Source of the DNA: Phycisphaerales bacterium
GTDB lineage: Bacteria; Planctomycetota; Phycisphaerae; Phycisphaerales; SM1A02
Direction: 5' to 3'
Assembly: GCA_022446795.1 (NCBI GenBank)
Contig: JAKVBX010000009.1
Span: 65,142-129,141 of the forward strand
Length of the DNA stretch: 64,000 bases
Shown here: positions 33,186 to 54,659 of the stretch, in pieces
Layout: each line of letters opens with the position of its first letter
How positions within the stretch are numbered: position 1 is the stretch's first letter
Notes under the pieces: generated by a model
The model's database searches: none
What the model was told of the DNA's origin: nothing
The model's input: only the letters and a program-made list of their open reading frames with translations
Translations under genes and position numbers: made by a program

Positions 33186-34703
<1,518 letters not shown>

Positions 34704-34726
34704 ACACGAGGATCGGCATCGTCACG

Positions 34727-35503
34727 ATGGCAGTTCCCGATACCAAGTCCACCCCCCTGACCCTCCCGGGACTCCCGCCGGAGCGGCTGCCTCGCCACAT
34801 CGCCGTCATCATGGACGGCAACGGTCGCTGGGCGGCTGCACGTGACAAGCCCCGGTTCGAGGGGCACCGCGCCGGCGTCGAATCCGCCCGACGGATCGTG
34901 GAGCACTGCGGCCGGCTCGGCATCGGCGCCCTGACCCTCTACTCCTTCAGCCAGGAGAACTGGAAACGACCTGTCACCGAGGTCGATGCGTTGATGCAGT
35001 TGCTGGTGGATGTCCTGCCACCGGAACGCCGGACCCTGATCGACAACAACGTTCGCTTCCGCGTCATCGGCAGTCGCGAGGGCCTCGCCCCCGACGTGCT
35101 CCGTGAACTGGACACGACGTGCGAGGAAAGCGCCCATTGCACCGGGCTGCAACTGAATGTCGCGTTGAACTACGGCTCCAGGCAGGAGATCGTCGATGCG
35201 ACTCGTCGCCTCGCCCAGCAGGCCCGCGACGGAACACTCGATCCAGCCGACATCGATGAGACGATGTTCTCCAATTCGCTGTGGACGGCCGGACTGCCCG
35301 ACCCGGACCTGTTGATCCGGACCGCCGGGGAGTACCGCATCTCCAATTACCTGCTGTGGCAGATCTCCTACGCCGAGATCCACGTGAGTGACCTGTTCTG
35401 GCCGGACTTCGACGAGTCCGCCCTGGAGGTCGCCCTGCGAGACTTCGCCGCGCGGAGCCGGCGATTCGGAGCACTCGACACGGATACCGACGACGCCTCC
35501 TGA
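34727..35503 (+). CDS. uppS: Isoprenyl (undecaprenyl) diphosphate synthase
   Basis: The protein has 258 residues. HIAVIMDGNGRWA (catalytic Asp30), GHRAGVESARRIVEHC, LTLYSFSQENWKRP, LNVALNYGSRQEIV and PDLLIRTAGEYRISNYLLWQ are the cis-prenyltransferase blocks. It makes the C55 lipid carrier for cell-wall and glycan synthesis. Co-directional with purA (23-nt gap). It ends 92 nt before the giant pseudopilin gene on the other strand, with a stem-loop in between. Confidence 0.95.
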   Translation: MAVPDTKSTPLTLPGLPPERLPRHIAVIMDGNGRWAAARDKPRFEGHRAGVESARRIVEHCGRLGIGALTLYSFSQENWKRPVTEVDALMQLLVDVLPPERRTLIDNNVRFRVIGSREGLAPDVLRELDTTCEESAHCTGLQLNVALNYGSRQEIVDATRRLAQQARDGTLDPADIDETMFSNSLWTAGLPDPDLLIRTAGEYRISNYLLWQISYAEIHVSDLFWPDFDESALEVALRDFAARSRRFGALDTDTDDAS

Positions 35504-35510
35504 AAAGCAC

Positions 35511-35554
35511 CGCCCCGTTGACATGCCATGGCAGCGGCGATGTGCAACGGGGCG
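35511..35554. terminator. Stem-loop between convergent uppS and the giant pseudopilin gene
   Basis: A 10-bp perfect stem (CGCCCCGTTG at 35511-35520 / CAACGGGGCG at 35545-35554), extended inward by ACAT/ATGT with one bulged G. On the minus strand it is followed by GTGCTTTTCAGG, so it best serves as terminator of the pseudopilin operon; it may work both ways. Confidence 0.5.
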
Positions 35555-35595
35555 GCTATGGTTCAGCACGGGCGAAGCCGCCCGCGATCGGGTCA

Positions 35596-38500
35596 TCAGT
35601 TCTCGATCTTCTCCATGTAGACGATGCGAGGCTTGTCGCCAGGCCGTTCCACTTCGCTGCGGTCGACCAGCATGACATAGCGGCTGTCGTCCACGATGGC
35701 ATCCGGATCCGTCGCATCCCAGACACCCGTCTCGGGATTCGGCTTGAAGGTCCGCACTCGGAAGTGAACGGTGAACATGTCCGACCGCGTCGTGATCATG
35801 TTCGACATGCCCGAGAAGAGCAGGTTGGCTTCCTCGGCATCGCCTGCCACCATGTCGCCACCGAGCATGCGCTCGCGGCGACGCATGTCATTGGTCGCGA
35901 TCCGGTCCCAGGTGGGCGGACGACCGATGAAACGCTGCACGCCGCCCCCGGATGAGTCGCGAATCTCACTGGTATCCGTGCTCAGCACAGCACCGATGTC
36001 ACCCGTACTCAGGGGATACGCGGGATATCCGAACTGGAAACGATGATCCTGCAACGGCGTCGACGAGCCGTCCAGGCCATCAGCGATGACGTGGAACGGG
36101 CGACGGGCCGCGAAATCGATCTGCCATGACCGGGGATCAGTGAACTCGCCGACCAGGTCGTAGTCATCGCCGACTCGCCGGCCACCAGGTGTCTCCAACT
36201 GGAACAGTTCACCAATACTCTTGAAGCCACGGGTTCCGCGACCGGTGGCGATGCCATCGGGCGGATAGATCACGTCGCTGCCATCGGCCTCCACGTCATC
36301 TGCGAAGCCATCGCCGTCCTGGTCATACTCGTAGTCATTGTCACCCGCGGAGGGCCGGAACGCCTGAGGCCAGACGTGCATGCTCTCCAGGTTCCATCGA
36401 CGATACGAGTTGGCATTGGACTCCGGTGTATGGGAACCACGTGAGCCGTAGTACGGACCGGCGGCGATACCACTGGCCAGGGCCAGTTCAGCCGCTTCAA
36501 TCTCGTCGTCACCATTGGCATCGAGGTCCGGCTCGAATGCCGGCGCCAGGTAGGTATCCCGGGCCCCTGCGAACGGCGCCAGGTCGACCGGTGCACCACC
36601 GGCCGTTCGCAACATGCCCAGGCCATCGCGGTACTGCACCATGGCATCGGCCACCGCCACGCGTGGGTTGCGGTTCGCCGCATCGCCATTGTTGGCATTC
36701 ACATCAAGAACGTTGGACCCGGATCCCTGGTATCCCACGCCACCATGGACGAGGCGATACATGTGCGGGAGCGCCCGCATCACCTCGACCGGCGCCGTAT
36801 TGATGTTCACCAGGCCAGGCGTGCCCTTGCCACTGAAGCCATGGGCATTCATGAAACTCGGATCTCGACCGCGGTAGACCTGGAAGCTGTCTTCCGGATC
36901 GACGATCCCATCCGGGAACACGACCCAGTCAGACGGATCCGACGACTGGGCAATGCTGGCATTGTTGAACAGGTCGTACACACCAGGTCCATCACAGACG
37001 AAAAGGTCAAGGACGCGCTGACCGGCGGGTTGCTCCGGCTCCAGGTGCGACACCTCGCCATTGGGCCGAATCCACGGATCAAGCGTGTTCTGCCCGAGGT
37101 CCAGCGGGACAATCCCCGGGAAGTCCTGGATGGGCTCTCCCACCAGGCTGCTGCGGCCATAGGCACTTGGTGACACTTCCAGTCGACCCACGCGACGCAA
37201 GGCGTCCCGCATCAGGTCGCGATAGCTCCAGAGCCAACTCTCGTCATGACCGAACGTGCCTCCGAACTGCTGCTCCCAGAACCGCCGGGTCAACCAGGGG
37301 CGTGCCGCCCGCTGCGTATCGGACAGTTCACGAGCCAGCGACTCGGAGAACGTTGAGATCGTGTGCACGGGCGCCACCGGATCAGGTCGCGGTTCGACAC
37401 CGGCCTGGCCGGGATAGTGCCCGTCGAGCCAGGGCATGCTCACCAGGTGGGCATGCGTCCACACGTTGAGCACCTCGCCGATCTGCTCGAAGTTGCCATC
37501 CTTGTGGTTCATCTGGAACGAGAAGGGCGCCAGATAGCCCTCGTCCAGTGGATCGGCTCCCCCAACACCCTGCCCAGCAAAGGGTATGGGCCCGATGCTG
37601 GAAATGGGAAGGTCATACCGCGGCATTTCCGCGGTGCTGTACACACCCTTGTCCGGGAATGACCACGGGTTGACCGAGTCGTCATAGGCCGTCCGGCTGT
37701 TTTCGTCGACCTCGTAATTCTCCCCCGCGATCATGTCGAAAGCTGTCGGCTTGCGATTGCGATACACGAACCCGATACGGGGAGTGGTCGGATTGGCGGG
37801 GATGTCCTGGAAAACCCGAGGCATCCGCTGGTTGCGACTCAGCCAGGGGAAGTACTGCGGCGGGTCGCCGACATCATGGAACTGGTCGCCATCCGGATCG
37901 AAGTAGGGAAGCGTACCGCCACCTCCACCACCACCGCCGCCACCGATGCCACCCATGTTGCTGCCATCGAACTGGAGGTAGGGCAAGTCGATGTGAACCA
38001 GGTCGCCGTGGATCCGGGTCACGTCCTTCATGCGGGTCATCTCGGGGTAGTGCGACTGTGTCGTATCGTCCCGCTCCAGGTCCGGGTGAGTGAGGCTCAC
38101 GCCTGCAGGCGGCTGCACCATGTAGAGGTCGTTGTCCTCGATCACCTTGATGTAGACCGAGAGATTGGAACCATTCGTCAACTGCGGCCCGTTGAATTCA
38201 CCCCATTGCGGACGAGGCGTATTCACGTAGTCAACGGTCTGCTCGGCAAAGAGCATGGCCGTGGAGTTGTACTGGGTGCCCATCGCCCCGGCATTCCACT
38301 GGAAGTTGTCATCCTGCTGCGGGAAGTAATTCGGCAGCAGCAAGGGGGCCGTGTTGCCCCAGTCATCAACTGGCTTTGCCGGGGGAACCGTATTCACCGC
38401 CGAGGCCCACTTGCGACCGAATGACTTGGTCACCTGGCCCTCACCCAACACGTATCGAGGCGCCGACCAGTCCATCTGGTGACGAGGCCCGTCGTAGTGA

Positions 38501-41500
38501 TTGAGCGAGGTCACGGCATCGCCAGGCTGCAATACGGCGGAATCATTGGCCGGACCGTGGTAGGGCCAGTCCGGATCGATCCCCCATGGCCTCGCATAGC
38601 GGGACCACTGGATCCAGCGGGTTTCGCCGGCCTTGCGATAACTGTCGCTGGCCAGTTCTGCCGCCTCGACCGCCTCGCCGGGCAGATACATGTTGTTCTC
38701 AGACTTGTCCTTGAACTTGCTCGCCCAGCCCCAGGCCTCCTGGTCTTCGCTGTGGTTGTCGAACAGGTTCCATCGGTATTCCTTGCCGGAATAGGACGAG
38801 AACTCGAAGTCATCATCACTATCCGTGGTGTCCGGCTCGGGCATGTCCGGGAACATGACATCATTCTCGATGATCTGGTCCTCGGTCTGGCCCGGCAGCG
38901 GCGGACAGATGATGGTCGGAAGCGGCCAATCTCCATGACTTCCCAGATCAGCCAGACGCTCTCGCATCAGGCTGGACTCGAACAGCGAGGACACGGAGAT
39001 CGTGTCGACCGTCGAATCACCATCGGCACTGCCCGAGGCCGTGTACGGCCGGCCCCATTCCAGGCCGGTGACGGATCGCAGCAGCGGATCCTCCATCCGA
39101 CCCCGATCGGGATTCCACTGGAGCGTGCGGTCAATGACCACGGCCTTGTCCGGCAAGGGCCCATTGTTGCCTGGAATGGCATCAGCATCCGTGCCGTACT
39201 CGAACGCGAGCGGCGCGCCCTGGTCATTCGTCCCCCAGGTGTCGCCGTAATCGCCATCGCCGTTGAGATCACGGCGGTGATAGCGAACCAGTTCGGCACC
39301 AGCATGGATCGGCGTCAACTGAGTGCCGTTACCAGCGGGCCCCAGCATGAGATCACCCAGGGTGTCCCGGCCACCGACCGCCGTCTCCTCGTATCCCTCG
39401 CCAGGCACGAGCACATCGCCGCCCGCCGTCGCACCGTACCAGCCACCGTCGTAGTAAACGCGGTTGGTGGCCCACACCTCATCCGTGTTGGCCTGGTTGC
39501 CGGGATTGGGACGCAGGACCCAGACGAGATCACCTGGCCGAACCGGGTAGTTCACGCCCTCGAACTCGAAGGACTCGGTCTGCAGCGGCGGCGGGAAATC
39601 CAGCCGCCCATCGCCGGTATTGATCAGGTCGAGAAAATCCAGCCACTGGTACCCCTCTGCACCAGGCTGAAGCGACCACCGCGAGTTGTTTCCAGCGGTG
39701 GAGTCGAAGCGGTCGAAGCGGGCGTTGGGCAGCGAGACGATGGTCAGCGTAAAAGGCCGATCATGAGTCGCTGGCGGCAACACCATTCCATGCGGGCTGT
39801 TGAGCAGCGGCAGGCCACTCCCCGCGGGATTGTCGGAGAAGTTGTTGTTCTCGAGGCTGGATACCGAGACGAGGCGCGAACCAGCGCCACGCTGGGCCGG
39901 CGCCAACGGCAGATCCTGCCCAAAGAGCCGGATGCCGTACTTCGGCAACCAGAAGTACTGGTTGCCATTGCTGCCGGGAACAGCGACGCGATCAAAGAGC
40001 GGCAACGGCCGATCATACGGGTTGGCGATCTGGATCACGGCAACCGTATCGGATGGACGCACGAAATCGGGCAGACCATCACCGATGTCACCCGTGCAGC
40101 CCAGGTCTGCCGGGGGTCCGACCGCACTGCCGCTATACGTGATCTGCCTACCATCGCCCTCGACCAACGCCCACATGGGATAAGTGGATGACCACTGGCC
40201 GTTGACGTAGTTCTCGGGCACCGCATATCCGCCCGTGTACGTGGCTGTTGATCCGGCAATTGGCAACTGCAGCGGTCGCTGCACGTGGGCGACAAAGGCC
40301 TCGGTGATGAAAGGCTGGGGCTCCATACCCATCGCGCCGACGTGGCGAACATGCTGTCGTGTGAGTTGCTCCGGTCCCGTGTACGTGTCGGGCCAGCCGT
40401 CATTATTCGAATCCGTCCCACTGACATCGCCCGGATCGGACCAGGCGCCATCCGTGACGTCTGAAAGGTTGGGGTATCCCGGGCCGTCGAAGTCATCGCC
40501 GACGTAGGGGCTCTCGACATTGGTCGAACCACCAGCAAAGGCGGACATGTCCGAACAGTCAAGTCCCATGCAGGACGTCGCCGGGAACCAGTAGCCCCCG
40601 AGCGCCTCGCAGTTGAACACGGTCAGGGCTCCGGTGCAGGTGCCATTCACGCAGCACGCGCCCTCGAAGGTGTCCGCATCGAAAGGCAGAAAGAGCCCAT
40701 TGTAGATCTGGGTATCGTTGACGCGATCGTCATCCACGCGACCATCGATGAACATGTCCTCGACGAATGGTCGCCACGCGCCATAGTTCTCGTCATGCGC
40801 CGGATCATCCTGGTCCGTATTAGCCACCCAACCATCCAGGCGAGGCAGCATCACCGGCCCCATGTCGCCACGAGGCTGGTTGTTCTGGTCCGTCCACTGC
40901 ATCGAGTACAGCGGCGCGTCCACATCGGAATCACGCCACGCGAGCATATTGGCCGCGAGCATGGCCGCGGTCTGGCGGGACTGCTCGATCCGGTGATCGC
41001 CGGAGTAATGGCGGACGCTGCTGCTCCCGCCGGAGCCACCACTCATCGCCCCGCTGCTGCCGATCTGGACATTGCCGGTGCCATAGACGCTGTCACGCGT
41101 CGTTCGAGAGGCATAGTCCGAACCGCCCTGCAGGTATCGATCGCGCCAGGAGTCATTGAGCTCACCGCTGGTGAGCGCCATGAACAAGGCCATGGGCAAC
41201 CGCTGGCTCAGCGGCATCGGTTCGTAGGAGGTCACGTCGGTGTTCAGGCTCAACGGCCGACCGGGGCTGGGCTGCTCCCACTCACGGAGGTCGATCTTCT
41301 GCCGCATCTGGGCGTGATACTGGTCCCATAGTTCGCGATACCAGGACTCCGGCTGGGATGAACTGATATCGCCATCAGGTGCCCAGGCGGCGGAGGTACC
41401 CACCATCGCCGGCGGCAGGTCCAGCAACTCACGGGCGTAGGGAACGAATCGCGGGAAACCATCGTCGGCCACGCCGTCACGATTGACGTCTCGAAGCGCT

Positions 41501-43791
41501 GGATCGGTATCGATCTCCTCACCCCAGACGCCCCGACGCATCACGGTGTCCGACAGGCTCATGCGGGAGAAACGGTTCTCCGCCCAGAGCCACGGCGGCA
41601 TGGTGTCATTCCGGGCGGAATTGAAGAAGGTCAACTTGCGACGATTGTCCGCCAGGAGCTGCCGGTTGCTCAACTGCTCATGAAGCGGCGAGGTTTCCTC
41701 GCGGTCCTGGCCCGAGCGCAGGAAGGCCGGGCTGGTATCGCCGTTGAACGGACTCCGCGACCACTCGGGATTCATCACCTGCTCGAAGCGACCATAGAGC
41801 CAGGGCAGGTTGTTGCCCTCGTAGGCCCGCAGTTCGATCTCCTCGCCAGTACCGAAGGGCGTGAAGAAGGAACCGGGGTTGAACGGGTCGAGGCCCGCCT
41901 CCTGGAAGTAGAACAGCCGGTTGTCCCGGTCATGGATGTCGCGACCACCGTCGGGGAAGGCCTGGTTGTACTCGATGCCCAGTTCGGACATCAGGTCCTG
42001 CAGGCCGCCGCTTCCAGTGAAGGCCTCGGGATCGAATCCCACGCTGGCCTCACTGGTATCCGTCGATGACGAGGTCCGCTCGATGAAGGCGTCGGGGTAC
42101 GTCAACCAGTCGTCCGAATCGGTATCGCTGTCAAGCAGACCCGACCAGTTGGCCCGGTTGTCAAAGAAACCCACGCTCCAGACATCCAGTTCCGGATCGC
42201 TGTTGGGTTCAAGGAACGCAGCGCTGCTGGCGCCGGTAATGCCCCAGGGATATTCCCATGGCGGCGTCCCCTGTCCCATGAGCGCCAGGTCCGCCGGGGT
42301 CCAGCCGCGCGTCCCTTCCTGGCTGCCGGCGTCATTACGGATCCCACGGGTCGCCACGTTCACATTGAGGCGACTGGAGTTGTCCGTGATCGACACGCCA
42401 ACGACCTGCTTGAGTCCACCCGGAGCCGTGTGTGGCGACAGCCACCAGAACGAGTCGGTGAACCCGTCACCATCGCTGTCCGTCAGAACGCGACCGACAT
42501 GCCAGCGGGCCGTGCCCTTGAGGAACTCATCCTCGGGTTTTTCGCCCAACTTGCCCGAGATCTCCCGGTCGAAGTACTCGCCATCCTGGCCATCACCGTC
42601 CAGGTCGGACAGGTCATAGAAGTTCGGCGGCAGGAGATCACCGTCGGGGAACTCCAGACCATTGGGGCCCGGGTATCCAGCCGCCGCCACCATGTTGTCC
42701 CGGTATCCCCAGGGGTGGAACCAGGCATTCCAACGCGTCCAGAAGTCGACATCATTCGTGAAGACCGACTGGCCCGTGGGCTGGAAGGAATTGGTTTCCG
42801 TTCCAGTGATGCGCTCACCATTGATCGTCGGCGCCTGGACCGGCCACTGCTCCACCGGAATGTCCAGTCGATCGACCAGGCCACCGTGGTAGTGATGGCC
42901 ATCAAGCGACGAGAGCTCCCAATCCGATCCCCAGTCCCAGTTGCCACGGGTGTGAATCTGGAGCACGTCATCCCAGCCCGCATCACCGGATCGAGCGCCG
43001 GTCACGTCCGCGATGTCACGGACGATCCGCCACTCGTTCTCCGGGCGCGAGATATTGGACAGGTGACGGTAGTGACTGAACGCATCGGCAACCTTGTCGA
43101 GAAAGCCGAAGGAACTGCCATCACTCGCGTCCAGGCCGTCGGCCTCGCGAAAGTGATCCGTGGCAAATCGCTGGGGCTCGGTGTCCCGCAGCCAGCGGGT
43201 GTCCGCGATGCCCGGTCCACCGCGGGGATTGGCCCGGGGCGGAACCGCGATCCGGTTGCCCGCCCGCTGGTGCGTCCCCAGCGTGAGGTCCTTCCAGACA
43301 TCATCCGTGGCATAGACGCTGCCGGCCAGGTGCAGTTCCGCCTGCAGACCGGTCTGGTTCTCGTAGGTCAGCCAGTCGGGCGGATTGGTCCAGGGCACCA
43401 CGTCGTAGGGTGCGTGGTTCCAGGCGAAGTTCGGATCGACACCGTATCGACCGGCGTCCTCATCCGGCTGCAGCCGGACCATCTCGTCGACCGGCTCGGC
43501 CAGGACCTCGCCGTCCTCCGTCCGCATCTCGATGGGCCGCACGAAGAGCGAACCGGCGATCTCGGCAGCCAGGTCCTCGGCCACGCTGTCCACGGACAGG
43601 TCACGGACGGTGGACTCGCGGTAGGCCGCGGCCGTCGAGCGGACGCTCTGGGCACGCGTGATGTATGAGATCGCCACGATCAGCAGCAGCATGATCAATC
43701 CCACGACGAGAATGATGCTGTTACCACGTCGTGACTGGTTCGACTGTCCCGCCCCCCGGCTGGCAAAAGTCCTGTAGCTGTTCATTGGCAT
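35596..43791 (-). CDS. Giant GspK/PilX-like pseudopilin (2731 residues)
   Basis: The N-terminus SRRGNSIILVVGLIMLLLIVAI gives a basic stretch plus one membrane helix (about 25-45) without the Glu5 of major pilins, exactly the GspK pattern. NSSRLNVNVATRG (near 473-485) and GLVNINTAPVEVMRALP (near 2325-2341) match the conserved N-x-NTA segment of GspK. Classical GspK has about 320 residues, so this is some eight times larger. Inserted material includes acidic DxDGDG loops, a Cys-rich module (about 1041-1076), a poly-Gly run (about 1945-1958), and many Trp/Asp/Asn-rich segments typical of extracellular proteins. It is the last gene of the pilin operon, overlapping the J-like gene. A second start at 43785 would give an ATGA overlap. 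Confidence 0.85.
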   Translation of the reverse strand: MPMNSYRTFASRGAGQSNQSRRGNSIILVVGLIMLLLIVAISYITRAQSVRSTAAAYRESTVRDLSVDSVAEDLAAEIAGSLFVRPIEMRTEDGEVLAEPVDEMVRLQPDEDAGRYGVDPNFAWNHAPYDVVPWTNPPDWLTYENQTGLQAELHLAGSVYATDDVWKDLTLGTHQRAGNRIAVPPRANPRGGPGIADTRWLRDTEPQRFATDHFREADGLDASDGSSFGFLDKVADAFSHYRHLSNISRPENEWRIVRDIADVTGARSGDAGWDDVLQIHTRGNWDWGSDWELSSLDGHHYHGGLVDRLDIPVEQWPVQAPTINGERITGTETNSFQPTGQSVFTNDVDFWTRWNAWFHPWGYRDNMVAAAGYPGPNGLEFPDGDLLPPNFYDLSDLDGDGQDGEYFDREISGKLGEKPEDEFLKGTARWHVGRVLTDSDGDGFTDSFWWLSPHTAPGGLKQVVGVSITDNSSRLNVNVATRGIRNDAGSQEGTRGWTPADLALMGQGTPPWEYPWGITGASSAAFLEPNSDPELDVWSVGFFDNRANWSGLLDSDTDSDDWLTYPDAFIERTSSSTDTSEASVGFDPEAFTGSGGLQDLMSELGIEYNQAFPDGGRDIHDRDNRLFYFQEAGLDPFNPGSFFTPFGTGEEIELRAYEGNNLPWLYGRFEQVMNPEWSRSPFNGDTSPAFLRSGQDREETSPLHEQLSNRQLLADNRRKLTFFNSARNDTMPPWLWAENRFSRMSLSDTVMRRGVWGEEIDTDPALRDVNRDGVADDGFPRFVPYARELLDLPPAMVGTSAAWAPDGDISSSQPESWYRELWDQYHAQMRQKIDLREWEQPSPGRPLSLNTDVTSYEPMPLSQRLPMALFMALTSGELNDSWRDRYLQGGSDYASRTTRDSVYGTGNVQIGSSGAMSGGSGGSSSVRHYSGDHRIEQSRQTAAMLAANMLAWRDSDVDAPLYSMQWTDQNNQPRGDMGPVMLPRLDGWVANTDQDDPAHDENYGAWRPFVEDMFIDGRVDDDRVNDTQIYNGLFLPFDADTFEGACCVNGTCTGALTVFNCEALGGYWFPATSCMGLDCSDMSAFAGGSTNVESPYVGDDFDGPGYPNLSDVTDGAWSDPGDVSGTDSNNDGWPDTYTGPEQLTRQHVRHVGAMGMEPQPFITEAFVAHVQRPLQLPIAGSTATYTGGYAVPENYVNGQWSSTYPMWALVEGDGRQITYSGSAVGPPADLGCTGDIGDGLPDFVRPSDTVAVIQIANPYDRPLPLFDRVAVPGSNGNQYFWLPKYGIRLFGQDLPLAPAQRGAGSRLVSVSSLENNNFSDNPAGSGLPLLNSPHGMVLPPATHDRPFTLTIVSLPNARFDRFDSTAGNNSRWSLQPGAEGYQWLDFLDLINTGDGRLDFPPPLQTESFEFEGVNYPVRPGDLVWVLRPNPGNQANTDEVWATNRVYYDGGWYGATAGGDVLVPGEGYEETAVGGRDTLGDLMLGPAGNGTQLTPIHAGAELVRYHRRDLNGDGDYGDTWGTNDQGAPLAFEYGTDADAIPGNNGPLPDKAVVIDRTLQWNPDRGRMEDPLLRSVTGLEWGRPYTASGSADGDSTVDTISVSSLFESSLMRERLADLGSHGDWPLPTIICPPLPGQTEDQIIENDVMFPDMPEPDTTDSDDDFEFSSYSGKEYRWNLFDNHSEDQEAWGWASKFKDKSENNMYLPGEAVEAAELASDSYRKAGETRWIQWSRYARPWGIDPDWPYHGPANDSAVLQPGDAVTSLNHYDGPRHQMDWSAPRYVLGEGQVTKSFGRKWASAVNTVPPAKPVDDWGNTAPLLLPNYFPQQDDNFQWNAGAMGTQYNSTAMLFAEQTVDYVNTPRPQWGEFNGPQLTNGSNLSVYIKVIEDNDLYMVQPPAGVSLTHPDLERDDTTQSHYPEMTRMKDVTRIHGDLVHIDLPYLQFDGSNMGGIGGGGGGGGGGTLPYFDPDGDQFHDVGDPPQYFPWLSRNQRMPRVFQDIPANPTTPRIGFVYRNRKPTAFDMIAGENYEVDENSRTAYDDSVNPWSFPDKGVYSTAEMPRYDLPISSIGPIPFAGQGVGGADPLDEGYLAPFSFQMNHKDGNFEQIGEVLNVWTHAHLVSMPWLDGHYPGQAGVEPRPDPVAPVHTISTFSESLARELSDTQRAARPWLTRRFWEQQFGGTFGHDESWLWSYRDLMRDALRRVGRLEVSPSAYGRSSLVGEPIQDFPGIVPLDLGQNTLDPWIRPNGEVSHLEPEQPAGQRVLDLFVCDGPGVYDLFNNASIAQSSDPSDWVVFPDGIVDPEDSFQVYRGRDPSFMNAHGFSGKGTPGLVNINTAPVEVMRALPHMYRLVHGGVGYQGSGSNVLDVNANNGDAANRNPRVAVADAMVQYRDGLGMLRTAGGAPVDLAPFAGARDTYLAPAFEPDLDANGDDEIEAAELALASGIAAGPYYGSRGSHTPESNANSYRRWNLESMHVWPQAFRPSAGDNDYEYDQDGDGFADDVEADGSDVIYPPDGIATGRGTRGFKSIGELFQLETPGGRRVGDDYDLVGEFTDPRSWQIDFAARRPFHVIADGLDGSSTPLQDHRFQFGYPAYPLSTGDIGAVLSTDTSEIRDSSGGGVQRFIGRPPTWDRIATNDMRRRERMLGGDMVAGDAEEANLLFSGMSNMITTRSDMFTVHFRVRTFKPNPETGVWDATDPDAIVDDSRYVMLVDRSEVERPGDKPRIVYMEKIEN

Positions 43792-45716
43792 CGCTCGGGT
43801 AGTTTTACGACGAACTGGATCGTCTGGCCGTTTTCCAGGTGGGTCTCAGGGTCGTGAAGAACCATGGTGAATCGCAGCGCGGTGGGCCACGGGGTATAGC
43901 TGTAGTCCGGATCATCAAAGCCGTCGCCATCCGGGCGGCCGTCCCCATCACCATCGGAACTCAGCATTCCGTTGAGGTTCAGCCAGTCCACGTCGAGCAA
44001 CGGCTTGTCGCGATTGCGACCGAAGACGGCCCAGTACTCGATGGGAACATCCTCCCCACCACCACCGAAGGTCGGCGGGTAGTAGATGTCCTCGATGGCA
44101 TCATCGCGAACCGTCGCAGGCGCCTTGGTGCCGGCTGCCGGCGCATCCGGATTGACGTCCCCGGGATAGACATCAGCGAAGCCGATCCAGCCCAGGTCGT
44201 CCTGGACGGACTGATCGACGCGACCAAAGGGCATCACCTGACGGCCGCGATCGTAGAGGCCGAACCAACGCTGCCCGAGATAGGGATCGCCGTTGGGGTC
44301 ATCCCACCCGTTCGCGGGATCGACCCGAAGACCCTCCCACTCGATCACCCTCGTGCGATCCGTCTGGGGATCGACATAGATGGACTCCGCGTCCCCGATA
44401 CCCTCGTCCCAGGTCCACTCCACGATGAAGGAACTGCAGGCGGACCCCAGCGTCGGGATCGTCAGGTGCTGATCAAAGCGACCTTCACCCGGCGGCACCC
44501 GCTCGGCGCGAGGCCAGCGAACCAGTGACTTGACCAAGTCACGCTGCGAACCGTCGCCGGGAAGATCCGGCCGGCCGCCGACACCATCCTGGTCGAGAAT
44601 GTCGCGATTCAGGGTGCCATCGTCATACTCGTAGAAGTCGCCACTGTCCCAGGACCGATTGGCCGGCAGGACGTTATTGGGATCCTGTGGGTCACGAGAG
44701 ATGGTGAGCGCCTCGGTGACGCCGGACATCCGCATGCCCGCCAGATCCACGCGACCACACTCCAGCAGCGGGATCGTGCTGAAGTGGATGTTGCTGAATC
44801 CCTGGTCCCAGCGAGGATCCACGGGGAACACGGAAGTCGTGCCGAAGGCCCGGCTCATGTAGATCCGCTTGTTGGATGTCCCGGGCAGGTTCTGGTCGTC
44901 ATCGCCCAGCACGGTCTCCTGCCTCGCGAGAATCCAACGACGGGCCTCGGGCTGTGTCCCGAGAATGGGATCAGCCTCGACCTGGGGAAACTGGATCGTG
45001 AAGTGCTCGTAATTGTCGTCGGTAGCCGCCCGCGGATACTGGCGGTAGATCGTCGGCACCGAGGCGTTGATGCCTCCGTCGAACCAGGGCGTGATCTCGA
45101 CACCTTCATCACGCAGCGTGGCGAAGTCCACGTCATGGCCATGCAGGATGGGCGGCTCGGCGGTGTTCGCCGGGTTGTTCACATTGCAGGCCTTCAACTC
45201 CGGAAACTGGATCGCGTGCCCGTAGTAGACCATCGACCCCTCGCCGAGAATCTTCGGGAACCACCCCGGCCGCGGCGTTACGTATCCATCGCTGCCCAAC
45301 TGCTTGACGCGACTGATCCCGTCGGTAAAGAACACCAACTGGTCACAGCGGATGAACGCGGTGGCGTTGAGATTGGGATTGATCAGGCCGGGACGCAGGC
45401 CGACGGAACCGTCGCTTTCCCAGTCCGCGATCCGCTGGTCATTGCGAACCTTCACGCTGTGAATCGCGATGGCACCCTGGGGAGACAACCGGGAGATATC
45501 CTCGCGGATCTGCTTCTCGATGGACGCGGTCTCCTGGAGCACGTCCGCGGCGGCATTGCCGACGTTGGAGACCTGCTGGGCCGTCTGGAAGACACGGGCA
45601 GAGGCCAGGAGAATGGCGATCAGGACACCAACCGAAACGAGAATCTCGGCCAGCGTAAAACCACCGGACCGGGCGGACTGTCGACCATTACTGTGCTGAC
45701 TCAGTCGTACTGGCAT
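43782..45716 (-). CDS. GspJ/PilW-like large pseudopilin
   Basis: The protein has 644 residues, about three times classical GspJ. The prepilin signal is RSGG then FTLAEILVSVGVLIAILLAS, with cleavage after Gly and Glu at mature position 5. The following helix TAQQVSNVGNAAADVLQETA fits a pilin alpha-1. The large C-terminal part contains PWPTALRFTMVLHDPETHLE, as in J-type proteins (prediction of strand-rich head), and an acidic SSDGDGDGRPDGDGFDD loop. The ATG at 45716 shares one base with the preceding TGA. It should be processed by a prepilin peptidase encoded elsewhere and sit in the pseudopilus tip. Confidence 0.85.
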   Translation of the reverse strand: MPVRLSQHSNGRQSARSGGFTLAEILVSVGVLIAILLASARVFQTAQQVSNVGNAAADVLQETASIEKQIREDISRLSPQGAIAIHSVKVRNDQRIADWESDGSVGLRPGLINPNLNATAFIRCDQLVFFTDGISRVKQLGSDGYVTPRPGWFPKILGEGSMVYYGHAIQFPELKACNVNNPANTAEPPILHGHDVDFATLRDEGVEITPWFDGGINASVPTIYRQYPRAATDDNYEHFTIQFPQVEADPILGTQPEARRWILARQETVLGDDDQNLPGTSNKRIYMSRAFGTTSVFPVDPRWDQGFSNIHFSTIPLLECGRVDLAGMRMSGVTEALTISRDPQDPNNVLPANRSWDSGDFYEYDDGTLNRDILDQDGVGGRPDLPGDGSQRDLVKSLVRWPRAERVPPGEGRFDQHLTIPTLGSACSSFIVEWTWDEGIGDAESIYVDPQTDRTRVIEWEGLRVDPANGWDDPNGDPYLGQRWFGLYDRGRQVMPFGRVDQSVQDDLGWIGFADVYPGDVNPDAPAAGTKAPATVRDDAIEDIYYPPTFGGGGEDVPIEYWAVFGRNRDKPLLDVDWLNLNGMLSSDGDGDGRPDGDGFDDPDYSYTPWPTALRFTMVLHDPETHLENGQTIQFVVKLPERCQ

Positions 45717-47029
45717 CAGAGACGCTCCACCATGGCATAGGCCGGAACCAGTTCCCACTGCTGTCCGTTGACCGTGACCACCCGTGGCACGAACCACAGC
45801 CGATCGATCAGGGGAATGTCGATCCCAGGCAACACGGAGTCCTGGCTTTCGCCGACAAAGCCGCCGGCCAGCAGCCCGGGTGTTTCGAAGTAGGCATCGA
45901 TCGTGTTGGTCGGCACCAGTTGCGAGAAGGTCTGCGGCGTCACGTAGGCCGTGCTCCCCTGCTGGAAGAACCGCATGTTGGCACTGAGCCGGACCGGCGG
46001 GATCTCGGAATCCAGCAGGACTCCCTTGCCATCATCGAACTCGTGATTCGGACGCGTACGGCCGCGTGACACGCGGTGCAGCATGCCGAGGTTGTCGGTG
46101 ATGTACTGGCCGGGATACTGCCAGGACTGGTTGGCTGCCGTGGGACTGAAGTCGTCCGTGGTCCCGGGCAGCGGAACCACGGTCACCCCGTCGCCACCAA
46201 GGCCATCGCCCTGGCCCGGGGACCAGTAGTCGCTGGCGTCCAGGACTTCCATGACGGGGACCATGGCCTCGGGCACGTTGGCCCACTCGCTGTTGCCACC
46301 ACCGGCATTCCGCACGCGGTAGACGAAGACGGCCACGTAGACCTCGCCGCCACTGCGACGGAGCATGAAGTCCCAGTAGTACTGCGCGGGCCGGCCTGTA
46401 CCGTCCGCCGGCGGCCAACGCCGGTCATCCTGGCTGAAGATGATCGACGGAGGCTCAAGGCGATCGATGTCATCCTCGTTGTAGAAGGCTGGCCACTTGC
46501 CCTCGAAGCGATAGGGAATGCCCAGGCTGACCAGGCCACCATTGCCGTCGTAGGCCCTCGACTGGAAGAACCGGTAGTAGTCCGAGTCGAGGTCAAGGTC
46601 CGTCACTGTCTGCTGGATGCCGCTGTAGCCCAGCCGATTGAATACATCCACCGAGCCGCGCAGGGGATCATCCGGCCCGGTCGGCACCACCACGGCCGGG
46701 TGCTGCCAGGGCCAGTCACTCTCGCGAAGGTAGTAGGCCGGGTTCTCAAGATCCAGGGAGCCTCCGAAGAGGGAGTCGACCTGTTCATCGGTGTAGAAGT
46801 CGGTCCAGGCGCCGAAGTCCGATTGGGACAGGCGTGACCGGATCACGTCCATGGCCGCCTTGGCGACCGTCGGCCCGTCAACATCGTCCTTGGCCCGCTG
46901 CTGCTGAAGGATGCCCGCGGGGAACAGTGCCGCCACGCTGATGAGCCCGATGCCCAGGATCATGATGGCCATGAGCAGTTCAACCAGCGAGAAACCGCGA
47001 CGCGTCTGGATGGCAGGGTCAGTTCTCAC
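45716..47029 (-). CDS. GspI/PilV-like large pseudopilin
   Basis: The protein has 437 residues from the GTG at 47029, which lies inside the 3' end of the H-like gene (11-nt overlap). The prepilin signal is QTRRG then FSLVELLMAIMILGIGLISV with Glu5, followed by AALFPAGILQQQRAKDD. Classical GspI has about 130 residues. The head region is Trp/Tyr-rich (WPWQHPAVVVPTGPDDP). A longer upstream frame exists but overlaps the H-like gene heavily and adds no signal. Likely part of the tip complex with the J- and K-like proteins. Confidence 0.83.
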   Translation of the reverse strand: MRTDPAIQTRRGFSLVELLMAIMILGIGLISVAALFPAGILQQQRAKDDVDGPTVAKAAMDVIRSRLSQSDFGAWTDFYTDEQVDSLFGGSLDLENPAYYLRESDWPWQHPAVVVPTGPDDPLRGSVDVFNRLGYSGIQQTVTDLDLDSDYYRFFQSRAYDGNGGLVSLGIPYRFEGKWPAFYNEDDIDRLEPPSIIFSQDDRRWPPADGTGRPAQYYWDFMLRRSGGEVYVAVFVYRVRNAGGGNSEWANVPEAMVPVMEVLDASDYWSPGQGDGLGGDGVTVVPLPGTTDDFSPTAANQSWQYPGQYITDNLGMLHRVSRGRTRPNHEFDDGKGVLLDSEIPPVRLSANMRFFQQGSTAYVTPQTFSQLVPTNTIDAYFETPGLLAGGFVGESQDSVLPGIDIPLIDRLWFVPRVVTVNGQQWELVPAYAMVERL

Positions 47030-48026
47030 GCTGTGACACTCCCGTGTAGCGGTTGAGTCGAATGCGAACCCCGGTCTCGTTGATGAAGCCGTTGATGTCC
47101 CGACCACGGCGAGCAGCCCCCGGCTTGTCGCGGGTCCAGGTCGAGATGCCATAGCGTTCCCGGGCGGCCTTCTCGTCGAAGAGCATCAACTCGGTCGCCA
47201 GGACGAGGAATGGCTCATCGCCATCCTGCTGGGCGCAGAACGGAATGCCCTCGTCACCATCGAAGACGACTTCATCTGGATGGATCAAGCCGGTGGGCAG
47301 ACGCTCGTTCAGGACCCAGCAACCATCGGTAGGCGCGAATCCCGGCGTGAACGATCGACGATCCGGCGGACAGGGTTCCTCGGAATTGAAGGACTGCTCT
47401 TCCCAGTGATTGCAGTAATCGATGCCGTTGACCCGCTGGCCGCCGTCACCGTTGAAATCCAGGAAGATCAAGGCCGCATCCGTCTCCTGGTCATAGCTGA
47501 CCGGTTCCCCATCGGGACCAAACATGATCGCGGGAAGAACGCCCGGCGGTTCGTTGGTCTGGTCCACGCGGGACGTCATGACATAGAGCTCGTCATCACC
47601 GAACTGGTGGGCCGGAGTGGCAAAGCTGACATCACGCGGCATCTCACGGGGCTCGATGCCTCGAATGGGCACGAACCGGGCGGCTGGCTGATAGTCCAGC
47701 GGGTCCGAGGACTGCGTGTCGTTGGTCCACAGGAACTGCTCACCGCTGGCCTGGCCCACGACGGCTTCCACGAAGTGCTCACCACCCGAGGTCACCCGCG
47801 AGCGGAAGGCCACGATGGTCGGACGCGAATCACGGATGGCGCGGGAACGAGCCTGCTCCAGGATCGAGCCGACTTCCTGTACGGCTGCGGACATCCGCAT
47901 GTCGGTCGCCACGCCTCGATACGCGACGAGCGTCAAGGCGGTCACGATCACGATGATCGCAATGACAACCAGCAGCTCAAGCAGCGTGAAGGCGGGCCGT
48001 CGATGGGTGGTGGCCGGGCTCACCAT
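47019..48026 (-). CDS. GspH/FimT-like pseudopilin
   Basis: The protein has 335 residues, about twice classical GspH. The prepilin signal is THRRPA then FTLLELLVVIAIIVIVTALT; the residue before the cleavage site is Ala rather than the usual Gly, which peptidases of this family tolerate. The alpha-1 continuation AYRGVATDMRMSAAVQEVGS and the next segment ILEQARSRAIRDSRPTIVAF match FimT/GspH. The insert contains DFNGDGGQRVNG and two to four Cys (YCNHW, PCPPD, GCW, FCAQ) that could form disulfides outside the cell. The start overlaps the previous stop by 7 nt. Confidence 0.85.
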   Translation of the reverse strand: MVSPATTHRRPAFTLLELLVVIAIIVIVTALTLVAYRGVATDMRMSAAVQEVGSILEQARSRAIRDSRPTIVAFRSRVTSGGEHFVEAVVGQASGEQFLWTNDTQSSDPLDYQPAARFVPIRGIEPREMPRDVSFATPAHQFGDDELYVMTSRVDQTNEPPGVLPAIMFGPDGEPVSYDQETDAALIFLDFNGDGGQRVNGIDYCNHWEEQSFNSEEPCPPDRRSFTPGFAPTDGCWVLNERLPTGLIHPDEVVFDGDEGIPFCAQQDGDEPFLVLATELMLFDEKAARERYGISTWTRDKPGAARRGRDINGFINETGVRIRLNRYTGVSQREN

Positions 48027-48853
48027 GTTCGTACCTCGTAGGAGTAGATGTTGTCGAGGGTGTGCTGGTACTCCGGACGCTCCACGAAGTCCGGCTCGTC
48101 GGCCGGCGGGAAATCACCCCCCGCCACGGCCGAGTAGTCGAGGTTGCCGAACCGGCCATCCGGACCGGCACTGACCAGGTAGACCCGCCCGTTCCGGGCC
48201 GGACCGACCATCCGTTCCTCGAAGGTCCGGATCGTGCCGTCCTCGTCCCGCCAGAGGCCCTGCGAGGAGTCTTCTGCATCGTTGTACCCCTCTGCAGCAC
48301 CGTCGGTTCGCCATTTTCGGCCAGGGAAAACGACCATGACCGGAACGCCCCAGGAATCGTGCAGGCACAGGACGCTGGAATCGCCCTCTTCCTCGGCCCG
48401 AAGCAGGTCATCGTCGATCTTCGCCATGATGTTCCGGGCCGCATCATTCCCCTTCAGCCGCCCCCAGACCTGGTGACCAAGTTCCTCCACGGCCTCGTGG
48501 AGTTCCCGCTCCCGGGAGCCCAGCAGGGTGCCGACATCGGTCCCGCCGGCCAGGGGCTCGGGAATGGTGAAGTCGTACTGGTAGGCACTCGAGTCGTTCA
48601 TACCTGTCAGCAGGTAGGACCAGTTCGAAGAGGTCGTTCCATAGGTCGGCTGCCGACCAGCGGTCTCGGTCCATTCGTGCAGGGCGGTGGCCCCGATCTC
48701 GAGGGCCGATCGCGTCTCGTCGGCCTCGCTCTTGCGAAGCACCCGGTTTCCGATGGACAGCGCGATCGTCGCCAGGATGAGGATCACGACGATGGTGATG
48801 GTCAGCTCGATGAGCGTGAAGCCACGTCGGCCTGATGTCGCCACGGCGGTCAT
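48020..48853 (-). CDS. Type II secretion / type IV pilin-like protein (second G-like pseudopilin)
   Basis: The protein has 277 residues from the ATG at 48853 (ATGA overlap with the preceding gene). The prepilin signal is SGRRG then FTLIELTITIVVILILATIA, with Glu5. The mature helix runs through NRVLRKSEADETRSALEIGA. The C-terminal PARNGRVYLVSAGPDGRFGN resembles the G-D-G end of GspG-type pilins, where a loop binds calcium. One of two adjacent G-like genes; which is the major subunit is unclear. Confidence 0.83.
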   Translation of the reverse strand: MTAVATSGRRGFTLIELTITIVVILILATIALSIGNRVLRKSEADETRSALEIGATALHEWTETAGRQPTYGTTSSNWSYLLTGMNDSSAYQYDFTIPEPLAGGTDVGTLLGSRERELHEAVEELGHQVWGRLKGNDAARNIMAKIDDDLLRAEEEGDSSVLCLHDSWGVPVMVVFPGRKWRTDGAAEGYNDAEDSSQGLWRDEDGTIRTFEERMVGPARNGRVYLVSAGPDGRFGNLDYSAVAGGDFPPADEPDFVERPEYQHTLDNIYSYEVRTW

Positions 48854-50091
48854 GGTCCGATCTCCCGGATGTTGTCTCGATTGACTTCCTCGGTGACGCT
48901 CACCGTGTACCACGGCTCGGCGCGGCAATGCGATCCGTTTCCATCCGGGAACCAGGCATCATCCGCGGCGCGATTCGGGAAGTGCCCCACCCAGTCCTGG
49001 AAGCTGGCGCCATCATTGCCGCCCTGGTCGGGATAGTCCGTGCGGTGCCAGTTGAAGATGCGACGATCCGGACCGGCGGACAGGAAGGCGAACTCACCCG
49101 ACTGCAAGGCCGCCGTCGTGGTGGTATCGCCGTTGCTGCCGGCACCGAGTTCATTGAAGTCTCCCCACCGCGATGCCGAGCCACCACCGGGAACGAAGCC
49201 GTAGTCCGTGGCATTCTCGGGCGCGATTTCCCAGGGCCGCAGGGCGATGAACTCAGAGAGCTTCGGGGTGTATCGCCACTCGCTGCTCCGCGGGAAGACC
49301 TGGTAGTTGGCGGGATAGCGACCGTCGAGTGTCCCCGAGGGATAGTTCAGGCGGTAGTACCGGATCGGGGATCCCCAGGCATCAACCAGGACCTTGGGGG
49401 CATTGCGGTCATATCCCGGATCGCCCGGGAAGTAGACCGCCGGCTGATCCGTCGTCGGATCGATGCTGCCCGTGTTCCAGGCGTTGTTGTCGTCATCCCA
49501 GCCAAGCGAACCGAGGGTGTCCTCGTTCTTCAGTTCCAGGTAGGGACCGAAGACCTTGCCGTCGGTAGCGGGCCGGCGATTGGCCAGGGTTGAATTGCAC
49601 GGATCCCAATTGCCCGACCCGTTGTCGCGAGTCGCGCCCCAGACGCCATCGATTCCCGGGGAGCGAATCCCGGGTGAGTCGAGTGTCCCGTTGGGGCCGC
49701 CGCCAAGACCGTCCTCGGCCGAGTTGCCGTAGCCGACGAGATACTCGGCAGGCGAGGTGTACGAGTACCACCCCTGCATGTCATACAGGTAATTGGGCTC
49801 GCCACCGTTGGGCCGGACGGTGCTGGTGATGGGAACCGGCGGCATCAGGCCACGGTCGTTGTCCAGGATCGGCGGCAGGTACCCCACGTCCTCGCGGAAT
49901 CGGCTGGTGGCCTGGGACATGGCGGTCATGAGCGACCGGGTCGTCGCCACGCGGGCGGTCTCCCGGACACCACCGACCGTCACCACCAGGATCGAGACCA
50001 GGATGATGAGGATACCCATCGTCACCAGGAGCTCGGTCATGGTGAATCCCAGGGGTCGATTCGGAATGTCCCGTCGTCGTAACGACATCAT
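48850..50091 (-). CDS. GspG-like pseudopilin (first, enlarged)
   Basis: The protein has 413 residues against about 140 for classical GspG. The prepilin signal is RPLG then FTMTELLVTMGILIILVSIL with Glu5. DAWGSPIRYYRLNYPSG corresponds to the conserved D-x-WG-x-P-Y/F segment of GspG, and EFAFLSAGPDRRIFNW to its C-terminal calcium-loop region. Between them lie insertions rich in Gly, Asn and Pro. It follows pilC by 25 nt and leads the pilin part of the operon. Confidence 0.85.
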   Translation of the reverse strand: MMSLRRRDIPNRPLGFTMTELLVTMGILIILVSILVVTVGGVRETARVATTRSLMTAMSQATSRFREDVGYLPPILDNDRGLMPPVPITSTVRPNGGEPNYLYDMQGWYSYTSPAEYLVGYGNSAEDGLGGGPNGTLDSPGIRSPGIDGVWGATRDNGSGNWDPCNSTLANRRPATDGKVFGPYLELKNEDTLGSLGWDDDNNAWNTGSIDPTTDQPAVYFPGDPGYDRNAPKVLVDAWGSPIRYYRLNYPSGTLDGRYPANYQVFPRSSEWRYTPKLSEFIALRPWEIAPENATDYGFVPGGGSASRWGDFNELGAGSNGDTTTTAALQSGEFAFLSAGPDRRIFNWHRTDYPDQGGNDGASFQDWVGHFPNRAADDAWFPDGNGSHCRAEPWYTVSVTEEVNRDNIREIGP

Positions 50092-50116: not shown

Positions 50117-51469
50117 TCAGGAGTTGGCCGTGTCGGACACGTTGGTAATGAGCTTGACCAGCGGAAGGAACAGCGAGATGACGATCACGCCGACCGCACC
50201 GCCGAGGCAGACCACCAGCAGTGGTTCCAGCAGGCTCAGCAGCGACTGCACGGCGACATCGACTTCCTCGTCGTAGTTGTCAGCGATCTTCATCAGCATG
50301 ACATCCATGTCGCCGGTCTCTTCACCCACGTCGATCATGTTGACTACGAGCGAGTCGCAGACCTTGGCTTCACGCAGGGGTTCGGCAAAGGTCTCGCCCT
50401 CGCGGATGGAGTCATGGACCCGCGTCAGGGCTCGTTCGAAGACCCAGTTGCCACAGGTATCACGAGTGATGTTGATCGCCTCGAGAATGGGCACGCCGGC
50501 GGAGATGAGCGTGCCGAGCGTCCGCGTGAACCGAGCGACGGTGGTCTTCTCGACCAGGCTGGCGATCACGGGGATATGCAGCAGTGTCCAGTCGGTGGCC
50601 GCTCGGCCGACATTGGTGCGCCGGAAGATCTTCAACACGAAGAACAGGACAAATGGCGCCGCCACGATGTAGATGAAGCCCGGTATGTCCTCTCCCTTTC
50701 CAGCCATCCAGTTACTGGCATCGATCAGCCAACGGGTCAGCTCGGGAAGCTCGGTATTGAAGTCGTTGAAGATCTCTTCGAACTTCGGAATCACGAACAC
50801 CATGATGCCCGTGACGATGACCACGGCGATCAGGATGACGACGATCGGATAGATCATCGCGCCCTTGATGCGGCGGCGCAATCGCTGGGATTTCTCCATG
50901 AAGTTCGCCAGCCGCTGCAGGATGATGTCGAGCACGCCGCCGATCTCGCCGGCGTTCACCATCTTGCTGTACAGCCGATCGAAGGCCTTGGGATGCTTGG
51001 CCATCGACTCGGAGAGCGACGTACCGGATTCGACGTCATCGGAGACATCCCCCAGGACGGTCTTGAGCTTGCCGGCCTTCTGCTGCTGTTCCAGGATCTG
51101 GATGGACCGAAGCAATGGCAGGCCGGCGTCCTGGAGGGTGGACAACTGACGGGTGAACAGCGTGAGGTTCTTCTTGTTGACCCCACCGATGGCCAGCGAG
51201 AAGCCCTTCTTGCGGCCGCCCTTCTTCTCGCCAGCTTCCTTCTTCTTCTTGCCGAAGCTGAAATCGAGCGAGAGGAAACCCTTCTTCTTCTTGCCCCCAC
51301 CGTCGGTGGTGGCCATGGCCTTGCCACGGGCCTGCTGTTCACGAACGGAGGTCGGGAAGAACCCCTGTCCGCGGATCTGCTGGATGGCTTCCTCGGAAGA
51401 GGAGGCTTCCAGGGCGCCGCGTTGGGGCTTTCCGGTGGCGTCTAGTGCTTCGTACTGATAGGTGGGCAT
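50117..51469 (-). CDS. pilC: PilC/GspF inner-membrane platform protein
   Basis: The protein has 450 residues from the ATG at 51469. The N-terminal block MPTYQYEALDATGKPQRG is typical. It has two T2SSF domains, each starting with the helix pattern LTLFTRQLSTLQDAGLPLLR and VARFTRTLGTLISAGVPILE, and three hydrophobic segments (MIYPIVVILIAVVIVTGI, FIYIVAAPFVLFFVLKIF, LLVVCLGGAVGVIVISLFL). Unusual is a Lys-rich linker at residues 50-100 with runs of four lysines, absent from classical PilC. It forms the assembly platform driven by the ATPase encoded 20 nt upstream. Confidence 0.93.
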   Translation of the reverse strand: MPTYQYEALDATGKPQRGALEASSSEEAIQQIRGQGFFPTSVREQQARGKAMATTDGGGKKKKGFLSLDFSFGKKKKEAGEKKGGRKKGFSLAIGGVNKKNLTLFTRQLSTLQDAGLPLLRSIQILEQQQKAGKLKTVLGDVSDDVESGTSLSESMAKHPKAFDRLYSKMVNAGEIGGVLDIILQRLANFMEKSQRLRRRIKGAMIYPIVVILIAVVIVTGIMVFVIPKFEEIFNDFNTELPELTRWLIDASNWMAGKGEDIPGFIYIVAAPFVLFFVLKIFRRTNVGRAATDWTLLHIPVIASLVEKTTVARFTRTLGTLISAGVPILEAINITRDTCGNWVFERALTRVHDSIREGETFAEPLREAKVCDSLVVNMIDVGEETGDMDVMLMKIADNYDEEVDVAVQSLLSLLEPLLVVCLGGAVGVIVISLFLPLVKLITNVSDTANS

Positions 51470-51489
51470 CGTTCTATTCCGCCGAGGGA

Positions 51490-53292: not shown

Positions 53293-53509
53293 GACAAATT
53301 GCTCCTAGAGAGGCTGGAATGGGGCCGCTTGACGCCTTGCCAAGCCTTGAGACCCCGAATCCGGGCGCTATATGAAACCGTACATTCTTTTTCGTTATAG
53401 CTGACCGACAGGGGGCCGTTTTTCTTACCGAAATCGGCTGTGCCATCGATCTTATGCAATAAGAACCCATGGCTCCAGGTGGCCCTGGGACCACTGGGCC
53501 AAGTCCAAA
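53293..53509. other. AT-rich intergenic region before pilB, presumed operon promoter
   Basis: The stretch between pilT and pilB is clearly richer in A/T than its surroundings. On the minus strand it has GCTATAAC and CATATAGC as -10-like sequences, but no confident -35 partner and no clear -24/-12 pair. I mark it as the likely promoter region without choosing a site. Confidence 0.4.
53471..53500 (-). terminator. Candidate terminator after pilT
   Basis: An imperfect hairpin (GGC-CCAG-TGG arms around an 8-nt centre with one bulged base each side) begins 10 nt after the pilT stop and is followed on the minus strand by GGTTCTTATT. Moderate support. Confidence 0.35.
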
Positions 53510-54625: not shown

Positions 54626-54659
54626 GGGTCAAGAACTCCTTCGCAAATCAAACACGGGA

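Follow-up and report, generated by a model that had tools for sequence, protein, structure and literature searches.

GspK-type tip-capping pilins are usually about 300 residues long, and PilY1, the usual pilus-tip adhesin, is present in diderm T4aP and not in all type IV pili. Type IV filaments grow tip first, with an HIJK complex capped by the subunit that lacks Glu5, and the known tip effectors are either PilY1 or modules grafted onto pilins (PMC10191384; PMC8179133). In GspK and ComZ domains are inserted into the pilin sheet itself, and modular type IV pilins, among them S. sanguinis PilB/PilC, CofB, TcpB and ComZ, carry an effector module that is shown by the filament and function as adhesins (PMC8179133). 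The protein described here resembles them in carrying what would be an effector module on a pilin and, as in ComZ and GspK, in carrying it inside the pilin sheet. Modules described so far are far smaller (the InterPro survey of PMC8179133 names 860 residues as its most extreme case), the carrier here is the K subunit without Glu5, which the motif of that survey may miss, and no domain could be identified in the body. With the PilY1/PilC tip adhesin (PF05567) the proposed likeness is one of role, a large effector seated on the HIJK complex at the tip; PilY1/PilC is not a pilin, and we saw no homology between it and the giant K.

The window, the whole 64,000-nucleotide stretch of a Phycisphaerales genome that was analysed, contains a minus-strand frame that begins with ATG and stays open for 2,731 codons; the plus strand of the same segment has many stops. 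Its features, as predicted, are as follows.

35596-43791 (stop codon included), minus strand: giant K-type minor pilin, 2731 aa
43549-43722, minus strand: residues 24-81, where the prepilin leader ends (RRG^N) and a long N-terminal helix follows (helix 25-81 in the model), Leu at +5 and no Glu5
42352-42486, minus strand: first GspK anchor block, residues 436-480, with a calcium-type loop DSDGDGFTDSFW, a beta hairpin and VGVSITDNSSRLNVNVA
36862-42324, minus strand: inserted body between the GspK anchor blocks, about residues 490-2310
40555-40656, minus strand: small Cys-rich insert, residues 1046-1079, with six of the nine Cys of the giant K
36757-36831, minus strand: second GspK anchor, residues 2321-2345, GKGTPGLVNINTAPVEVMRALPHMY
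36193-36231, minus strand: counterpart of the GspK F-x-S-x-GEL segment, residues 2521-2533, RGFKSIGELFQLE
35599-35874, minus strand: C-terminal strands, residues 2640-2731, TTRSDMFTVHFRVR ... RYVMLVDRS

The mature form would comprise about 2708 aa (298.7 kDa, pI 4.4, net charge about -199). At 8.9 times the 307 positions of the NCBI GspK model, the protein bears out the estimate of roughly eight classical lengths made in an earlier, sequence-only reading of this DNA. That reading had also described a GspK-type N-terminal helix without Glu5 and two N-x-N-x-A segments, and both were found again. A prepilin-type leader ending RRG^NSIILVVG... precedes the helix (RRG^NSIILVVGLIMLLLIVAISYITRAQ, with Leu at +5), and Glu at +5 is absent from all homologues with a readable N-terminus. 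The first segment, LNVNVA, lies at residue 475 and the second, VNINTAP, at residue 2328 (VNINTAPVEVMRALP). Most of the extra sequence lies between these two motifs, both standard for GspK, and a lesser part ahead of the first. No tandem repeats were found in the frame, and a tandem-repeat origin of the body was rejected on that ground. The body matched no Pfam or NCBIfam domain, and no adhesin, lectin or carbohydrate-binding domain could be recognised in the giant K with these two collections.

Across the family the anchors follow the order LNVN, NINTAP, AxxxxYRD, FKSIGEL, RSDxFTV and VDRS; the large insertion separates LNVN from NINTAP, and conservation peaks at these anchors. The first anchor block is the most conserved block of the N-terminal part; it has invariant columns and aligns with K proteins that carry T2SSK. 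The inserted body differs in length among homologues. The Cys-rich insert within it (CCVNGTCTG...C..LGGYW...SC) is missing in nearly all aligned homologues, and its likeness to ADAM17, which a second look (VIA) put at Z 3.7 and 3.2 for two chains, is not meaningful.

Membership in the GspK family could not be read from a direct search. Pfam gave no match for the whole giant K, and the C-terminal 464 residues reached 15.9 bits (E 0.017) against T2SSK (PF03934), below its cut-off of 24.2 bits. NF037980, the NCBI GspK model, gave no match, leaving the giant K itself short of the curated cut-off of either model; standard T2SSK searches miss it because its core is split by the insertion. Among homologous ends, 15 of 32 matched T2SSK (best E 9e-4). 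The class also has K proteins of about 875-1,340 residues, which come last in the same kind of cluster, and several of them score above the T2SSK cut-off, with up to 44 bits for L095, a bridging homologue that also matches NCBI GspK at E 9e-17. In profile-profile comparisons the C-terminal profile of the giants (A1) matched these proteins of about 1,000 residues (A3) at 99.7% (E 4.5e-27) and the N-terminal part matched them at E 2.7e-29. The A3 set in turn matched a GspK set of classical size at 99.0% (E 4.9e-18), and A1 matched the classical set directly at 98.3% (E 2.6e-14). An HMM built from the ends found 65 of 2,991 forward frames; the reversed ones gave no hit, even up to E 10. The T2SSK profile check that the sequence-only reading had proposed thus yields a weak direct match only, and the family assignment is settled through the profile-profile comparisons and the bridging homologues, in agreement with the GspK-type identity put forward there. 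With high confidence, based on these alignments, we assign the giant protein to the K-type (GspK) minor pilins, as a member enlarged by a very long insertion.

Compared with GspK/XcpX (PF03934, NF037980; 3ci0_K, 5vtm_X), the giant K shares the absence of Glu5, the position as last gene after G-H-I-J, and the order of motifs: the helix, a hairpin with D-[EN]-x-x-x-L-N-x-N, then N-[IV]-N-T-A-P ... Y-R-D ... F-x-S-x-G-E-L ... R-S-x-x-F-x-V ... V-D-R. It differs in the roughly 1,800 additional residues between two motifs, in the PilT encoded alongside and in scoring below the curated cut-offs.

A second described family touches on this one. The 1,296-position model TIGR02600 (Verru_Chthon cassette protein A) matches the C-terminal ends of the giant-K family and the N-terminal ends of the K-like frames of family f5, and Verru_Chthon cassette proteins B, C and D resemble the pilins that neighbour the giant K. 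Cassette protein A is uncharacterised and about half as long as the giant K, which matched the model at one end only, with 15 bits, in a whole-protein HMM search. As the family ends score 15-30 bits and the curated cut-off is 332.3 bits, membership of the giant K in TIGR02600 was rejected. No literature on a 'Verru_Chthon cassette' or on a giant GspK was found in a search that took in few subscription papers.

Structure models gave modest evidence in the same direction. A 1,016-residue homologue was modelled with a mean pLDDT of 35, about 65-80 in most of the core and poor outside it. This model aligned to 3ci0_K with Z 8.0 over 145 residues, at the large rmsd of 8.6, and to XcpX 5vtm_X, 6utu_C and 9a1f_T with Z 6.8 each (rmsd 8-11); all these alignments spanned both ends, and four of its top six rows belong to the GspK family. 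The NINTAP region of this homologue by itself aligned to ComEA with Z 8.1. The top Foldseek match was 9a1f_T of the XcpGHIJK filament, at an E of 0.37 that alone is not significant. For the protein in the window, residues 1-1120 were modelled with a mean pLDDT of 57.7 and a pTM of 0.62, the conserved parts confidently, with a helix at 25-81 and a hairpin at 447-456/460-465; Foldseek found no PDB match for this segment at E up to 10. The giant K would be read as a usual GspK pilin core, comprising an N-terminal helix, one beta hairpin, a helix-hairpin-helix (SAM-like) segment and C-terminal strands, into which about 1,800 residues are inserted between two standard GspK motifs, after a smaller expansion before the first.

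The sequence-only reading had raised the possibility that the assembly had wrongly fused several genes; a frame error, or N-x-N motifs that occur by chance in a large secreted protein, would be related artefacts. The window does come from a draft assembly of 78 contigs, and the direct Pfam T2SSK score of its protein is below the cut-off. The same long frame in the same gene place nevertheless recurs in about 35 loci of other assemblies, and alignments of both parts to K proteins have E values under 1e-26. In other assemblies several homologues, 2,300-2,900 codons long, each lie within one contig and in the same gene order, and for this reason an assembly join is rejected; we consider the probability of an artefact of either kind negligible.

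Relatives in the same gene place were found in about 35 genomes and measure 1,211-2,894 residues, a few being cut by contig ends. A protein search of 61 genomes gave matches in 49, and a phylum-wide sample in 40 of 294. An independent scan of named genomes confirmed 123 relatives; the best 80 of the 123, which were retained, come mostly from Phycisphaerales and other Planctomycetota and include 45 complete frames with a median of 2,020 and a maximum of 2,910 residues. No phage relatives were found. The cluster with an enlarged K is present in this marine planctomycete and in nearly all of its relatives in the family. The earlier reading had known of no characterised example of this size; great size is no peculiarity of this gene, however, as a large K is general in the family, and NCBIfam already contained a relative, the 1,296-position TIGR02600. 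One draft genome of the same genus (G001) has two complete giant-K clusters, L035 and L036, encoding proteins of 2,879 and 2,395 aa; its estimated contamination is 9%, and one of the two clusters may therefore be foreign.

A G-H-I-J-K series of pilin genes ends with the giant K, and genes for the motor and platform come before it.

43782-45797, minus strand: J-like minor pilin, 671 aa, with weak gspJ / Verru_Chthon C matches and a conserved place
45716-47152, minus strand: I/PilV-like minor pilin, 478 aa, TIGR02523 PilV (E 2.8e-7) and N_methyl
47019-48026, minus strand: H-like minor pilin, 335 aa, TIGR01708 gspH (E 8.5e-8)
48020-48928, minus strand: G-like pilin (G302), 302 aa, TIGR02532 and TIGR01710
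48850-50091, minus strand: G-like pilin (G413), 413 aa, TIGR01710 (E 3.8e-5)
50117-51598, minus strand: platform protein PilC/GspF, by family matches
51490-53292, minus strand: PilB-like extension ATPase with an MshEN domain and a c-di-GMP-binding (MshE-related) motif
53510-54625, minus strand: retraction ATPase PilT, TIGR01420 (448 bits, cut-off 319.1)
54660-56396, minus strand: second PilB-like ATPase with an MshEN domain

Where the contig is long enough, most loci share the order PilB2-PilT-PilB-PilC-G413-G302-H-I-J-K. PilB scored 642 bits, slightly below its equivalog cut-off of 675.65. At 51490-56396 PilT is flanked by the two PilB-like ATPases, both with MshEN/c-di-GMP motifs. The five pilins encoded upstream of K (43782-50091) are all enlarged relative to classical G-J, at 302-671 aa, the J-like one most. 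Downstream of K, the ORF at 34577-35596 had no family match, and similar frames adjoin K in relatives in either orientation; it is probably not a real gene. Elsewhere in the window, positions 11904-13655 encode a TPR protein with a C-terminal sulfotransferase domain (Sulfotransfer_3).

The sequence-only reading had called the protein a pseudopilin, a label that probably names the wrong machine. PilT exceeds its curated cut-off, which favours a type IV pilus that can retract over the pseudopilus of a type II secretion system (T2SS), and a separate cluster of the same genome encodes a GspK of normal size (503 aa). The genome also has a GspD/GspG cluster, a prepilin peptidase and three secretins. 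A PilM and a PilQ-like secretin, the sole PilM-PilQ set seen, lie on another contig beside their own GspE/GspF; secretin and PilM/N/O are absent from the giant-K cluster. We considered that the giant K might instead sit on a short T2SS-like pseudopilus as a cargo receptor, its body gathering periplasmic exoproteins that are then pushed out. HIJK complexes of T2SS interact with secreted effectors (PMC10191384), G-H-I-J-K is the T2SS gene order and classical GspK is a T2SS part. However, PilT, which T2SS lack, sits in the conserved cluster, no GspC/L/M/D was found there, and the genome already has another system with a GspK of normal size, so that we regard a cargo receptor as unlikely.

One secretin of this genome is itself a giant: a minus-strand frame of at least 4,270 residues (contig C12, L119:7092-19901) has 44 Secretin_N domain stretches followed by one C-terminal secretin domain. 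Some 15 relatives have frames of about 3,600-5,100 aa that end in a secretin domain; stacked in this way, the domains could bridge a periplasm of great width. A coupling of giant K and giant secretin as a rule is unsupported, as G001, with its 2,879-aa K, has secretins of 1,008 and 695 aa among the matches listed.

The reading we favour, with a probability of roughly 55%, is that K caps a retractable type IV pilus and that its insertion is a built-in tip effector, used in adhesion or polymer capture, that does the job of PilY1. Within the tip complex of minor pilins the protein would be the GspK-type K subunit and, lacking Glu5, should cap the growing tip, together with I, J and H. PilB would push K out first and PilT could pull it back. 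The acidic, loop-rich body would thereby be displayed at the tip, where it would most likely serve adhesion or the binding of extracellular polymers in place of PilY1. We infer its surface exposure, its effector role and the class of its ligand; the sequence-only reading had offered adhesin, cargo receptor or plug as roles for an extracellular body. Against the tip-effector reading count the failure to recognise an effector domain or to match residues 1-1120 to a PDB fold, and the absence of secretin and PilM/N/O from the cluster. A separate PilY1 gene was not found: a search with a single Pfam family (PF05567) gave no match in this genome and in 39 of 40 relatives. Pili-like fibres of the planctomycetes Planctopirus and Gemmata, members of another class, bind dextran, apparently with no gene named for them (PMC5394234), and this observation suggested polymer capture as a possible task of the K body. 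An alternative task would be the capture of DNA by a competence pilus. The ComZ insertion of Thermus, also a large domain in a pilin sheet, is thought to bind DNA (PMC8179133), but the strong acidity of the giant K (noted above) is unfavourable for DNA and makes this role very improbable.

How the body would leave the cell bears on the same question. If compact, a protein of about 299 kDa is at least 8.8 nm wide. A body of such width is a tight fit for known secretin channels; it may pass the secretin, be elongated, or stay behind as a plug. The last case, in which a body too wide for the secretin remains periplasmic and gates or primes the channel as a plug or ratchet, draws on this minimum diameter and on the enlargement of all five cluster pilins, which would give a bulky tip. 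A gate, however, would not call for a body whose length differs so much between relatives (about 1,200 to 2,900 residues), and the body may be elongated; we hold a plug to be improbable.

For a tip effector on K, the sizes of the partners offer a further indication. Genomes with a longer K tend to have longer mature J, I and H, and longer G-like pilins of both kinds (Spearman 0.64-0.88). With independent contrasts the link to K length held for I (p 0.006) and G413 (p 0.008), was marginal for J (p 0.057) and was not significant for H and G302, and the sizes of PilB, PilC and PilT showed no link. As five pilins were tested in samples of 23-26, we take this scaling as supporting evidence only; that of I is in keeping with the capping of the filament tip by K with I and J, as the sequence-only reading had stated for GspK. 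Together K, J, I and H would amount to about 4,070 mature residues, or about 0.45 MDa.

Modular minor pilins and large inserts in GspK and ComZ were already known; what is new to us is the extreme size, together with a core split so widely, a PilT in the cluster and partners that are enlarged as well. With the giant K, pilins reach several times the largest size known before, and the protein indicates that even the subunit with which the filament starts, the K cap, can bear an insertion of very great length. As an example of a split core, it also gives a reason why such proteins are missed by standard T2SSK searches. It provides a named gene and a clear prediction of how an effector could be held at the tip of a type IV pilus that has no PilY1, and bears on how planctomycetes bind and take in large polymers. 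More speculatively, one planctomycete lineage may have built the tip effector into the K cap itself and expanded the entire complex at the tip into a retractable 'grabbing head' for polymers; if true, this would provide a genetic basis for the polymer-binding, pili-like fibres of planctomycetes.
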